Source of the DNA: Clavibacter michiganensis
Lineage (GTDB): Bacteria; Actinomycetota; Actinomycetes; Actinomycetales; Microbacteriaceae
DNA: 64,000 nucleotides
NCBI RefSeq assembly: GCF_002151125.1
Contig: NZ_MDJZ01000003.1
Coordinates: forward strand, 1 to 64,000
Reading direction: 5' to 3'
Of the stretch, positions 19,310 through 23,455 are shown piece after piece. Positions within the stretch are counted from its first letter, which is position 1, and each line of letters starts with the position of its first letter. The notes below the pieces were generated by a model. That model had not been told where the DNA came from. It ran no database searches and was given only the letters and a program-made list of their open reading frames with translations. A program made the position numbers and the translations under genes.

Positions 19310-19383
<74 letters not shown>

Positions 19384-19388
19384 CGGAC

Positions 19389-19424
19389 ATGCCTCGGAAG
19401 GACCTTAGGGTCCGGCCGGGGCAT
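19389..19424 (+). terminator. Terminator hairpin after tRNA-Pro
   Basis: ATGCC-CGG pairs with CCG-GGCAT in the outer stem, then GGACC with GGTCC around a TTAG loop. TTCGTCGTTT follows. It separates the tRNA from the island. Confidence 0.7.
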
Positions 19425-19584
19425 TCGTCGTTTATGAGGTGGTCCTACTTGAGCCGCCAGGCCACGAAGCCGCAGCGGCGCTTTGCGCTCCTCGCCGCAA
19501 CCCGCACTCGGGTATCTGCTGGTGTCGCGATGAAGCTGGCACCGGGCTTTGCTAACCGAGTACGATGCAAAGGTGAGAGCACAC

Positions 19585-20637
19585 ATGGGTGAAGTTGCCG
19601 CCATCGATCTTTTCTGTGGAGCAGGCGGCTTGTCTCTCGGTCTCAAACAAGCGGGCATCGACGTCGTAGCGGGCATTGACCTCGATCCAGCTTGTGCGTA
19701 TCCATACGCAGTAAATCTCGATGCAGAGTTTATTTTGGCCAGTGTCGCTGAAGTGACGAAGGAAGATTTAGAGCGACTTTGGCCGCAGGGCAAGCTAAGG
19801 CTTCTGGCCGGATGCGCCCCTTGCCAGCCTTTTTCTAGTCACCGGCGAGGAGCCGACACCAGCGACGAAGAGAATTGGGATCTTCTGGGACATTTTACTC
19901 GACTGGTCGAGGAAACGTTACCAGATTTCGTAACGATGGAGAATGTGCCGCGCCTCAAAAAGATGAGCGTGTTCGCATCCTTTGTTGCGAAGCTCGAGGC
20001 GCTCAATTACTCAGTCGCTCATGAAGTTGTGTACGGGCCAAATTACGGATTACCTCAGGAGCGCCGCCGACTCGTTCTTCTCGCGACGCGAGTAGGTACG
20101 CTAGTAAAGCCAATGCAACCTACTGGTGCAGTAAGCTTTGCGACTGTAAGGGAATCGATCGGAAGTCTGCCTGCGCTACGAAGCGGAGAATCGGATTCAG
20201 TCGACTCGCTGCATGCTGCTCGCCAATTGTCTCCTCTCAATATGGAGCGTATTAGGGCTTCGAAGCCGGGTGGAACTTGGCGGGATTGGCCTGAAAGGCT
20301 CGTAGCGGAGTGCCACAAACGTGTGTCCGGAGCCAGCTTTCAAGCCTTCTATGGACGCATGGAGTGGGACAAGCCGTCTCCAACCATCACCACTCAGTCG
20401 TTTAACTATGGAACAGGGCGTTTTGGGCACCCGGATCAAGACCGCACTCTCACGTTAAGAGAGGCGGCCATGCTCCAAGGCTTTCCCCGCGATTATGTAT
20501 TCGTCGAGCCGGGCAAGCGCCCGTCCATGCAATCGGTTGGTCGCCTAATAGGCAACGCGGTTCCGCCAGCATTCGGTAAGGCCGTTGGCTCACAAATTAT
20601 GGCCCTAACCGCAGCTGGTGACCATTACGTCGCTTAA
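19585..20637 (+). CDS. C5-cytosine DNA methyltransferase
   Basis: The product is 350 aa and transfers methyl from SAM to C5 of cytosine in a specific DNA site. Motif I is AIDLFCGAGG (residues 6-15), motif IV is the PCQ with catalytic Cys80, motif VI is MENVPR, motif VIII is QERRR, and motif X is IGNAVPP near the C-terminus. The variable target-recognition region lies at about residues 185-260, so the target cannot be read from sequence. The ATG at 19585 was chosen because AAGGTGAG lies just upstream and the next residues lead directly into motif I. It is the first gene of the island; the ATPase follows after 53 nt. Confidence 0.95.
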   Translation: MGEVAAIDLFCGAGGLSLGLKQAGIDVVAGIDLDPACAYPYAVNLDAEFILASVAEVTKEDLERLWPQGKLRLLAGCAPCQPFSSHRRGADTSDEENWDLLGHFTRLVEETLPDFVTMENVPRLKKMSVFASFVAKLEALNYSVAHEVVYGPNYGLPQERRRLVLLATRVGTLVKPMQPTGAVSFATVRESIGSLPALRSGESDSVDSLHAARQLSPLNMERIRASKPGGTWRDWPERLVAECHKRVSGASFQAFYGRMEWDKPSPTITTQSFNYGTGRFGHPDQDRTLTLREAAMLQGFPRDYVFVEPGKRPSMQSVGRLIGNAVPPAFGKAVGSQIMALTAAGDHYVA

Positions 20638-20676
20638 AGTGTAGTACGGGTTTCGCCGCATTTTGGTTGTATGGTC

Positions 20677-20683
20677 AAAGGAG
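20677..20683 (+). promoter_or_regulatory. Ribosome binding site that sets the start of the GHKL-TIR gene
   Basis: AAAGGAG lies 7 nt before the ATG at 20691. It argues against an in-frame TTG start at 20667, which would add eight residues. Confidence 0.75.
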
Positions 20684-20690
20684 ATTCTGC

Positions 20691-22559
20691 ATGAAAGAGT
20701 ATAAGCTCGAAATCGACCCACGTATTTTGGAGCTCCTAGGCCCCAGCCTCTACTCGAATATATATTACGTTCTCGCTGAACTTATCGCAAACGCGTATGA
20801 CGCAGATGCTCAAAATGTGTGGATTATCGCCTCTGACGACGAGATTCGGGTGGAAGATGACGGTCGGGGTATGTCCTACTCGAATGGCGAGGTAGCGCAG
20901 TACCTGAACGTCGCTGGACCTTCTAGGACTTCTGAGAAAGACGCGGTTACCTCAAGGGGCAGGCGCCGCATGGGTCGAAAAGGTGTAGGCAAGCTGGCCG
21001 CCCTGTCCGTTTCTGCTGACGTCGAAGTGTTAACAGTTTCGCAAGGAGAGCGTTCGGGTTTCATTCTGTCTCGGGAGCCAAATGAAGGGGAGCTTTTGGC
21101 CCCAATACCGGATGATGCGATTATTTTCGAGTACGTCGATGATCACGGCTCCGCTATCGTGATGAAGTCTCCGCAGTATCAGCTTCACAAGACTCAGTCT
21201 GTCGTTAGGCGAAACATCAGTAAGATGTTTCCACTCGTCAGCAAAGAATTTCGGATACACATAGTTCGTGATGGTGTGTTTGACACGTTGGACGGTTTTG
21301 ACGACACCGTCATGCGGGACCTCAGTACCTTAATCACGCTTGGGGATGATTACAGACGCCTAGCCGGGCTCGTTCCCAATCCCTATCCGGCCGAAAGGGA
21401 CAAGCTCGTGTCCTCGCGTGAGGCCGTAACGCGCCCAGTCACTGTAGCGAACAAATCTGGAGTAGAGCGTGAGTACACGCTGGAGATCAAGGGTTGGATT
21501 GGTACCTACAAGTCCACAACTAACAGAAAGAGTACACTCACGGACTTCCCGGATAACTTTATCTCACTGTTTGCCAATGGCAAGCTTGGGGAGTTCAATA
21601 TTCTTCCCCTAGTAGGTCAGAACAAATTGAGCGAGGTCTACGTAGTCGGGCAACTGCATGTTGACCTCTTCGAATTAACAGAGTTGCCTGATATGGCGCT
21701 TAGTAACCGGCAAGGATATAAGTCGGATGACCCGCGATATCAAGAGCTTCTCATGTATGTCCGAAAGGAGCTTCTAGCGGATTCGCGGCGACGAAGGGAC
21801 CTTTTTGGTCAACTGACAAAAAGCCAAAAAGCGGAGTCGAAAATCGCTCGTCAACGTCAAGATGAGGCTGAGTTCCGGGTAGCTGTCGATGAGTTCCGGC
21901 GAGATGTCAGCCGTTCGACGGCGGAGACCATTAGTACTACTGCCACGTTGACGACCGCCGCCTCCATCGAGGAAGCACTAGACAGGTCAATAAACAGACA
22001 CGTAGGTCACCTCGGCATCAAGTCAAAAATTGATGCTCAGAAGAAGAAGATATTGATTAGTCACACTTCTGCAGATTCCGATTTTGCGGATATTATATTT
22101 GACATGTTGATATTTAACGGGGCCGTTCCCGACGACATACTCTATAGTAGTAGCGCAAACTCTGTGTGTCGAATTCCGAATGGGGTGCCAATCTACGAGT
22201 ACCTTCGTGATTTTTTTGTCGACAGCTATTCTACTCAAAAGCTAACGGTGCTCTTCGCTACCAGTGACAAAATGGCAGCGTCTTGGGGTGCAGTGTCTGA
22301 AGTTGGAGCATCTTGGATCACACAGATGCACCACGAAGTATTTAATTTGTCGCCTTTTACTCCGATAAAACCACTAAATGCAGATGCCGTTTGGCAAACT
22401 ACGCACTATGACGACGATACGGATGCCTTTTCCATGGATGCTATAAACATGGACGTATTTTGCGTCAAAATTGAGGATGTATGCGCTTTGCACGGATACG
22501 CTGTCCGATCACGGACAGATAACATGGCTCACCTCAAGCGACTGATCGAGTCGCGTTAG
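20691..22559 (+). CDS. GHKL (MutL/MORC/Hsp90-type) ATPase fused to a C-terminal TIR-like domain
   Basis: The product is 622 aa. Residues ~1-130 are a GHKL ATPase: N box ELIANAYDAD with Glu30, Asn34 and Asp37, G1 motif EDDGRGM at 55-61, and G2 motif GRKGVGKLA at 95-103. Residues ~130-330 resemble the transducer-type middle part of MutL/MORC-like proteins. Residues ~370-445 are charged, helical and probably coiled coil. Residues ~453-560 look like a TIR domain: KILISHTSADSDFA with the SHTSAD loop at 457-462, and SWGAVSEVGASW with Glu537 at the place of the NADase glutamate. An unassigned tail ends the protein. GHKL ATPases beside DNA methyltransferases and Vsr nucleases are known from restriction-type operons. 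The TIR end suggests NAD+ cleavage on infection; that is inference. The domain calls are from motifs read by eye. Confidence 0.82.
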   Translation: MKEYKLEIDPRILELLGPSLYSNIYYVLAELIANAYDADAQNVWIIASDDEIRVEDDGRGMSYSNGEVAQYLNVAGPSRTSEKDAVTSRGRRRMGRKGVGKLAALSVSADVEVLTVSQGERSGFILSREPNEGELLAPIPDDAIIFEYVDDHGSAIVMKSPQYQLHKTQSVVRRNISKMFPLVSKEFRIHIVRDGVFDTLDGFDDTVMRDLSTLITLGDDYRRLAGLVPNPYPAERDKLVSSREAVTRPVTVANKSGVEREYTLEIKGWIGTYKSTTNRKSTLTDFPDNFISLFANGKLGEFNILPLVGQNKLSEVYVVGQLHVDLFELTELPDMALSNRQGYKSDDPRYQELLMYVRKELLADSRRRRDLFGQLTKSQKAESKIARQRQDEAEFRVAVDEFRRDVSRSTAETISTTATLTTAASIEEALDRSINRHVGHLGIKSKIDAQKKKILISHTSADSDFADIIFDMLIFNGAVPDDILYSSSANSVCRIPNGVPIYEYLRDFFVDSYSTQKLTVLFATSDKMAASWGAVSEVGASWITQMHHEVFNLSPFTPIKPLNADAVWQTTHYDDDTDAFSMDAINMDVFCVKIEDVCALHGYAVRSRTDNMAHLKRLIESR

Positions 22560-22637
22560 AGTTAGCTCAAATGAAATCCGGGTGGCGATGGGCACTTTCA
22601 TGATCAAATCATTACATGCAGACTATGTCTCGTACTT

Positions 22638-23048
22638 ATGAGGCTCGACGTGTCACGTAGCTCCATGGTTAGTAACAGGGGGAGAGACACGAAGCCCGAA
22701 CTAGCGGTTCGGAAGCTGATTCATGCGAAAGGCCTCCGATATAGAGTTGATATGAGGCCCTTTGCGGCCATAAGGAGTCGAGCCGACATAGTTTTTCCGC
22801 GCCTGCGTATTGCAGTTTATATCGACGGATGCTTTTGGCATTCCTGCCCTGAGCACGGTTCGACACCAAAGACCAACATTGACTATTGGGGCCCCAAGCT
22901 TGAAAGAAATAAGCAACGTGACCTAGAGGCCACATTAGGTTTGCGGGATCAAGGGTGGACTGTTCTGAGGTTTTGGGAGCACGAGGGCGCAGAAGAAGTG
23001 GCCGACGAGATAGTTGTAGTTGTTCGTGCGGCGGCGGGCCGGATTTGA
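22638..23048 (+). CDS. vsr: Vsr-type very-short-patch / restriction-like endonuclease
   Basis: The product is 136 aa, the usual Vsr length. Compared with E. coli Vsr it has the N-terminal RDTKPE motif (Glu21), Asp50 in SRADIVF as metal ligand, Asp63 and His68 in the DGCFWHSC motif, and zinc-ligand-like Cys65, Cys70 and His73. GWTVLRFWEHE is the conserved C-terminal strand. Vsr enzymes nick at T:G mismatches made by deamination of 5-methylcytosine, so pairing with the methyltransferase makes sense. Stand-alone Vsr folds are also proposed as restriction nucleases in GHKL-containing operons. No upstream in-frame start exists. The ribosome binding site is weak. Confidence 0.9.
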   Translation: MRLDVSRSSMVSNRGRDTKPELAVRKLIHAKGLRYRVDMRPFAAIRSRADIVFPRLRIAVYIDGCFWHSCPEHGSTPKTNIDYWGPKLERNKQRDLEATLGLRDQGWTVLRFWEHEGAEEVADEIVVVVRAAAGRI

Positions 23049-23455
23049 CATCGATTTCACCTGGGCCTTGCTGTTTGGGGGTATCCAGTGAGACTGTTTG
23101 GATGCGCTAACGTCAGCGACCGTGCTAGAAGAGGCCGCACATCGATTCAGCCCAACAAAGTCGGCATGCTAAGTGAGGGTGTCTTTGGGGTGGGCGTGAA
23201 CGAACGTCGACGGAGTGCCTTGGTTCTCTCTCTAACGGTGCTCGTATCGTCCGGTGGCGATGTAAGTACGATGCTTTTGGCTCGCTAGCACGGCGCCGGC
23301 TCTGCTTCGCAGGAGGAGTTCCGCCGGTCTGGAGTCGTATCACCCCCATGCGAGGGCTTACGGACGGGAGAGCTCGCTCGTAGCCTCAGGCGTCGTCACT
23401 CGACGGCACCATCTGCCGCCTACCCCTTCGCCGCGGCACGCACCCGAGGAGCTCC
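23049..23455. other. Non-coding right end of the island and transition to host DNA
   Basis: No supportable gene was found. Short frames here lack start signals and family features. Low-GC sequence persists to about 23.29 kb. No tRNA fragment, integrase remnant or direct repeat of the tRNA-Pro 3' end is visible. The last bases carry GAGGAG, the ribosome binding site of the next gene. Confidence 0.5.

Follow-up and report, generated by a model that had tools for sequence, protein, structure and literature searches.

A three-gene locus of Clavibacter michiganensis pairs a cytosine methyltransferase with an ATPase that ends in a TIR domain, and we put at roughly 55% the probability that it is a restriction-modification-like two-gene immune module in which depletion of nicotinamide adenine dinucleotide (NAD) serves as the "restriction" step, assisted by an accessory repair gene. 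The locus lies in a 64,000-nucleotide stretch (contig NZ_MDJZ01000003.1, positions 1 to 64,000), hereafter the window. Its genes, all on the plus strand, are M (19585..20637), encoding a 350-residue C5-cytosine DNA methyltransferase; G (20691..22559), encoding a 622-residue GHKL-S5-coiled coil-TIR protein of the paraMORC4 type; and V (22638..23048), encoding a 136-residue Vsr-type mismatch endonuclease. An earlier note on this DNA had called three plus-strand genes, and its positions proved exact. The core of the unit is the M-G pair, and V is accessory. Observed directly in this analysis are the gene content, the domain folds, the catalytic residues, the near-obligate link between M and G, and the homology of G to a restriction enzyme family.

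The N-terminal part of G is homologous to restriction enzymes. The gene starts at the ATG at 20691, preceded by the ribosome-binding sequence AAAGGAG (20677-20683), and residues 1 to 347 (20691..21731, plus strand) form a GHKL ATPase and S5/transducer module marked by E30, N34 and D37, DDGxGM (56-61), GRKGVGK (95-101), and K298. Pfam HATPase_c_3 matched G with an E value of 3.5e-18, an S5 domain with the conserved basic residue follows the GHKL domain, and VIA-align placed the ATPase part nearest to MORC. Against NF050001, the NCBIfam model of BbrUII/HgiDII restriction enzymes, G scored 213.5 bits (E = 5.8e-63) over residues 12 to 379 of a 630-residue open reading frame (ORF); the runner-up NCBIfam model reached only 30.7 bits. 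The match stops at model position 360 of 659, the C-terminal half of the model being unmatched and the score lying below the whole-protein cutoff of 550 bits, and the TIR domain comes after it. Judged from sequence, G carries a TIR domain in place of the BbrUII/HgiDII nuclease half. That half is taken, from the family name, to be the part that cuts DNA. The earlier note's statement that no classical restriction gene is present therefore needs amending: residues ~1 to 370 of G are homologous to such enzymes, and the rest is TIR.

Seven proteins above the NF050001 cutoff were found, and six of them adjoin a methyltransferase of the same family as M; none was found in the host genome. The phage collection yielded a single related record, Escherichia phage PhiR44_1 (L010, 5001-8151), a P2-like phage whose full BbrUII-type gene (annotated ParaMORC3) stands next to Dcm in the stretch separating portal from replication genes; the two form a phage-borne restriction-modification pair. 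In three other loci (L003, L004, and L088), the BbrUII-like ATPase half is joined instead to a TIGR02391 domain, which makes a third kind of C-terminal end.

C-terminal to the ATPase module, the AlphaFold2 model of G (mean predicted local distance difference test score, 83.3) has helices at residues 348 to 416 and 423 to 441 by DSSP, a long helix/coiled coil (residues 348-441; 21732..22013, plus strand) that joins the ATPase to the TIR domain (residues 446-622; 22026..22556, plus strand). The Pfam TIR model gave no match in G. The domain was recognized through the PADLOC spbK model (1.2e-18), and by profile and fold it resembles SpbK, the TIR NADase of Bacillus subtilis ICEBs1, which is the nearest solved fold. 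Residues E537 (22299-22301), G539, and W542 align with SpbK E192, G194, and W197 (numbering offset of 24, from a chain length of 290 and a native end at 266). In SpbK, E192Q abolishes both NAD+ depletion and defense (PMC11984713), and G194R and W197A lack NADase activity even when the activator is supplied (PMC12847820). The Hx[ST]xD motif of the window protein reads H458-T-S460-A-D462 (HTSAD, 458-462). The earlier description of G as a GHKL-TIR ATPase is thus supported for both folds, by profiles and by the model, and the NADase glutamate is kept. By analogy with SpbK, the TIR domain of G probably destroys NAD.

Seventy-three full-length G proteins were compared: 70 from a genome_contigs scan (75 loci), one of six viral_contigs loci, a Listeria locus from the plasmid collection, and the window. 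Five fetched loci (L058, L060, L069, L084, and L086) were excluded for being truncated or split. The scan used two N-terminal peptide patterns and is a sample, not a census; the plasmid collection held 20 related records, one with at least 80% coverage. Entry to the set was put at ≥540 matched residues and ≥35% identity, which makes the presence of the TIR domain partly a matter of construction. The counted GHKL residues are invariant in all 73 proteins, as are the positions of the catalytic glutamate, glycine, and tryptophan of the TIR domain; D462, E537, G539, A540, and W542 are its invariant residues. Alignments A4 and A5 hold 61 of the 73 rows, 11 having been left out by eye (mainly close relatives) together with L009. 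The G tree spans at least 15 phyla.

Across this set G travels with M. A methyltransferase of the same family lies within 1 kb of G in 56 of the 73 loci, and the remaining 17 comprise 15 DISARM-type clusters, one locus cut by a contig end (L024), and one that is neither adjacent nor of that type (L041). Of the 55 pairs outside the window, 45 read M>G, 3 read G>M, and 7 are convergent; that the pair is kept while its order varies supports the link. When the genomes without an adjacent M were searched, 15 of 16 encoded an M-family gene elsewhere (49 to 52% identity). The background is low: 1 of 98 other relatives of the window's host has an M-family gene (G067, 57%, full length), and it stands beside a BbrUII-type gene. 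Distance matrices of the 56 M-G pairs correlate (r = 0.33, with 0 of 2,000 permutations as high), to which shared taxonomy may contribute. The survey bears out M and G as one conserved unit, and by these sequence comparisons G is apparently near-strictly dependent on M. The recurrence of the full three-gene neighborhood, which the earlier note had proposed as a check, held for the M-G pair and failed for V, which adjoins the unit in 26 of 73 loci.

Two of the surveyed loci have unusual surroundings. In L041 (8517-9821), G lies 0.6 kb from a gene for a SEFIR/TIR-like protein (PADLOC bSEFIR and SAVED_TIR), with M 11.5 kb away on the same contig. The Listeria monocytogenes "plasmid" record L009 (NZ_CP030101.1) is 2.9 Mb and chromosome-like; M and G form a two-gene unit there, and its 13.9-kb stretch yielded no Vsr.

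M matched Pfam DNA_methylase (PF00145; 180.9 bits, cutoff 22, E = 5.6e-53) and TIGR00675 (125.7 bits, cutoff 100.65), and PADLOC called it DrmMII/MTase_II, with DrmMII the best model. FCGAGG, PCQPF, ENVP, QERRR, and GNAVPP, the motifs of a 5-methylcytosine (5mC) methyltransferase, are all present. The target-recognition region between motifs VIII and IX is 45 to 57% identical (median, 52%) to those of eight methyltransferases beside BbrUII-like genes and 45 to 62% (median, 51%) to those of 55 G-linked methyltransferases; the corresponding medians for the catalytic part are 45% and 44%. Six of these eight comparison enzymes adjoin proteins above the BbrUII cutoff, and the other two stand beside a GHKL protein below it (L099) and an annotated ATP-binding protein (L098). 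Thirteen other 5mC methyltransferase ORFs from the same loci are 19 to 30% identical to M in this region, a low figure that is partly by construction, as these controls were chosen at <35% overall identity and several are near-identical to one another. The target-recognition region is less alike than the catalytic part in 10 of the 13 controls, equal in 1, and more alike in 2, while among the eight BbrUII-side enzymes it is more alike in 6, equal in 1, and less alike in 1. Since the target-recognition region of M resembles those of methyltransferases beside BbrUII-type genes, its target predicted from sequence is probably GTCGAC, the site of the experimentally characterized 5mC enzyme M.HgiDII (PMC5867850).

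The DISARM-type clusters enclose G within DISARM genes. DrmMI and DrmA homologues lie around G in all 15, and PADLOC, applied to the neighbors in three of them (L012, L016, and L019), returned strong matches to DrmMI, DrmA, DrmB, or DrmD; in L016, the DrmMI protein scores higher still against a type IIG model. M shares the contig with the cluster in 12 of the 15 loci. The commonest order is M-(V)-DrmD-DrmMI-G-DrmA-DrmB, in which the DrmD matches are partial (31 to 38%); L106 departs from this order in having M on the opposite side, and L108, L109, and L114 in having additional sequence between DrmMI and G. Mapped on the G tree, the DISARM label changes eight times, at least six of them forced by well-supported branches, from which we conclude that G moved between DISARM and two-gene settings several times. 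In the host genome of the window, the one DrmA model tried (PDLC02567) had 0 matches, and in the open-access literature we found no report of DISARM genes nested within an M-G pair. A Deinococcus plasmid (L095, 3974-9038) carries a BbrUII-type gene, M, and Vsr beside annotated drmC and DUF1998 genes, so the restriction enzyme version also accompanies DISARM genes.

In the window, the unit occupies a low-GC insert (approximately 19430..23340) with a G+C fraction of 0.44 to 0.55, versus 0.67 to 0.77 in the surrounding sequence. ARAGORN and the GC profile agree with the earlier placement of this island beside tRNA-Pro (anticodon GGG; 19310..19384, plus strand). The insert was delimited by blastn against congener intervals and by the GC profile: its conserved flanks, 19385 to ~19430 and ~23340 to 23455, are matched in 12 of 14 (19385-19430) and 14 of 14 (23340-23455) congener intervals, and the tRNA-Pro is identical in all 14 intervals fetched. 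The upstream neighbor gene is kept in 17 of 17 congeners (85 to 98% identity) and the downstream neighbor over most of its length in 15 of 17 (69 to 98%), with the G002 copy divided over two contigs and weak or short matches only in G011 and G013; both are 98% identical in the nearest congener. The spacing between the two neighbors ranges from ~1.3 to 10 kb among congeners. Ten proteins encoded in these intervals were compared with Pfam and ten with PADLOC. Pfam gave matches for 5, including NACHT (L128), an ATPase of ORC-CDC6-like type (L129), and one of AAA/DUF3696 type (L133). PADLOC gave matches for 2: the L133 ATPase matched NsnB and, more weakly, PtuA and other models, and an L129 protein was CARF6-like. 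Throughout the genus, the tRNA-Pro site is thus a hotspot of variable inserts, some of them defense-like, which fits the earlier view of the island as a defense locus. Full-length G was not found in the 17 congeners, where two matches cover ~110 residues each; no duplication of the tRNA end as an attachment site was detected within the window at up to three mismatches; and promoter and terminator scans gave no signal above chance. One congener interval of 10 kb (L136, G008) has a 43-nucleotide copy of the tRNA-Pro 3' end and ORFs that on visual reading resemble integrase and terminase genes; its insert may represent a phage or satellite that entered at this tRNA.

V is a Vsr homologue (TIGR00632, 120.7 bits against a cutoff of 97.85; Pfam Vsr, 7.5e-18) with a looser attachment to the unit. 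Counting the window, it adjoins the unit in 18 of the 56 M-adjacent loci, and it does so too in 7 of the 15 DISARM-type clusters and in L024; a looser search added no adjacent case and found V-like stretches farther off in six loci. In the seven DISARM-type clusters its neighbor is M; six of these have V and G on one contig, at least 7.5 kb apart. In the 17 other M-adjacent loci the order is V-M-G in 8, M-G-V in 6, M-V-G in 2, and G-V-M in 1. Homologues of V with 60 to 65% identity occur in eight congeners, of which seven were found to carry theirs at the tRNA-Pro site, and these congeners have no M-family gene at ≥45% identity over most of its length; the loci concerned are L153-L159 and L163, and L127, L134, and L136-L140. 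Broken or partial Vsr copies are present at the site in G015 and G005. The V tree tracks host taxon and not the M-G unit: window V groups with actinobacterial sequences, separate from most G-linked V; its placement next to the congener copies is weak (92/70), and those copies form a clade (100/97) that excludes it. We considered vertical residence of V at the site and rejected it, since V is less identical to its congener homologues than the flanking genes are to theirs; window V looks instead like a related but separate import, with the tree weak at this point. Vsr enzymes repair T:G mismatches that arise when methylated cytosines deaminate, and we infer that V is a locally recruited repair gene guarding the sites of M and not an effector. 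Near M and G in four loci (L031, 157-1935; L032; L033; L085, 2008-3837) is a ~600-residue ORF that matches methyltransferase (26%) and Vsr (39 to 41%), a Vsr-methyltransferase fusion, apparently belonging to a second system.

In the mechanism we propose, M would methylate one cytosine motif, probably GTCGAC, throughout the host genome as a self mark. G would act as a MORC-like, ATP-driven protein, probably a dimer, whose GHKL-S5 module, common to BbrUII/HgiDII enzymes, would read DNA that lacks the mark. At an unmarked target G would close, and the coiled coil would gather the C-terminal TIR domains; the clustered domains would cleave NAD+ as SpbK does, and the cell would stop before the phage, its presumed natural target, multiplies. 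V would mend T:G mismatches left by deaminated methylated cytosines. Whether the scheme extends to a methylation-licensed NADase in the full sense, with a BbrUII-type sensor that fires TIR at unmarked sites, interchangeable ends (nuclease half, TIR, or TIGR02391), and M-G pairs that enclose DISARM and couple it to suicide, is in our estimate an even bet.

Several observations weigh against this mechanism. The link to GTCGAC passes through the name of the NCBIfam family, and DrmMII, the DISARM name under which PADLOC also places M, covers at least one enzyme that marks another site. The window shows no depletion of GTCGAC (104 sites versus 69 expected); site avoidance was set aside as a test of the target, as an excess in the window neither supports nor excludes recent arrival. 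NF050001 matches below the cutoff occurred in 11 of 14 control genomes; a bare match therefore indicates a GHKL domain only, and the argument is carried by the strength and length of the match. In the Hx[ST]xD motif, aspartate is present in 73 of 73 proteins, but histidine in 27, with glutamine in the other 46. In one genome, that of L012, no M of the family was found, and the contig begins inside drmMI. In the DISARM-type clusters (15 of 73), G could answer to DISARM and not to the site of M. SpbK is triggered by a phage portal protein, not by DNA (PMC12847820), and the open-access literature yielded no experimental study of a GHKL-TIR protein.

Four rival explanations were weighed. G might respond to a phage protein, much as the portal YonE is sensed by SpbK, with M linked to it and mechanistically separate. 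The portal-triggered SpbK is the nearest solved TIR; however, its N-terminal domain is small whereas G carries a MORC-like ATPase, and if M were separate, its retention in 15 of 16 genomes without adjacency would be hard to explain. We regard this as quite unlikely. Nor do we favor, though we rate it a shade higher, a TIR domain acting as a nuclease or as a structural or allosteric element, with G restricting or compacting DNA as MORC does and leaving NAD+ intact. A nuclease or allosteric binding site is what PMC2292703 proposed, the ATPase likeness to MORC agrees with it, and SpbK forms filaments (PMC12847820); against it stand the invariance of the NADase glutamate and of the glycine and tryptophan that SpbK requires, and a closest fold that is a proven NADase.

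An addiction unit is the strongest of the unlikely alternatives. Here M and G would be an antidote and toxin that retain the island, such that loss of M exposes unmethylated sites and the TIR domain kills, with anti-phage activity secondary. The rarity of G without M and the placement of the island at a hotspot for variable genes are what this explanation would expect, but the spread over at least 15 phyla and the repeated nesting with DISARM fit defense; the two roles are compatible. The idea that Vsr is the effector nuclease, which the earlier note had entertained, is in our judgment highly improbable. V does follow G in the window, as it does in 6 of the 17 loci outside it, and it adjoins 18 of the 56 M-adjacent loci. 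Yet 47 of 73 loci have no adjoining V (6 of them with a V-like stretch elsewhere in the locus), V stands beside M and not G in DISARM-type clusters, it is found at the tRNA-Pro site of congeners without M or G, and its tree follows host taxon; we rejected it both as effector and as core part. NAD depletion set off by DNA that lacks the mark of M remains the reading we prefer.

G is a further example of an architecture predicted in 2008. The accessible part of Iyer, Abhiman and Aravind (PMC2292703) describes paraMORC4 proteins as GHKL plus S5 plus a TIR domain with Hx[ST]xD, in restriction-modification-type operons with methylases and Vsr, and G agrees in its GHKL and S5 domains, its C-terminal TIR domain with the motif, and its methylase/Vsr neighborhood. 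That portion of the account leaves a nuclease role of the TIR domain open and does not mention the BbrUII/HgiDII link, SpbK-type residues, a specificity region shared by M, or DISARM. With BbrUII/HgiDII systems the unit shares the GHKL-S5 half of the restriction enzyme, the methyltransferase family, a similar target-recognition region, the two-gene layout, and sometimes Vsr; it differs in the TIR domain that stands for the C-terminal half of the enzyme and in a score far under the family cutoff. With SpbK it shares the TIR fold, the catalytic glutamate, and the glycine and tryptophan of the filament interface, whereas SpbK has a small portal-sensing N-terminal domain and, in the parts of its reports available, no ATPase or methyltransferase partner is mentioned. 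It resembles DISARM in the DrmMII-like M and in the DrmMI and DrmA homologues that flank G in 15 of 73 loci, and departs from it in a window host without a match to the one DrmA model and in the position of M beside G in 56 of 73. VcSduA (GHKL-Shedu) likewise carries an effector at the C-terminal end of a GHKL ATPase and has reported anti-phage activity, but its effector is a PD-(D/E)xK nuclease and the accessible text mentions no methyltransferase partner (PMC12137116). What appears to be new is the near-strict dependence on M, the DISARM genes nested in the pair, the probable target site, and Vsr as a guard of M.

If this reading is true, methylation-based discrimination of self from nonself is wired to metabolic suicide, and restriction-modification and TIR abortive infection would be two outputs of one sensor. 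One ATPase module found in nature with either a restriction enzyme end or a TIR end would allow a direct test of how MORC-like proteins read DNA, with NAD+ loss as a reporter that would reveal when, and on which DNA, the ATPase fires. The same reading would also suggest that a branch for suicide is built into some of the DISARM-type clusters.

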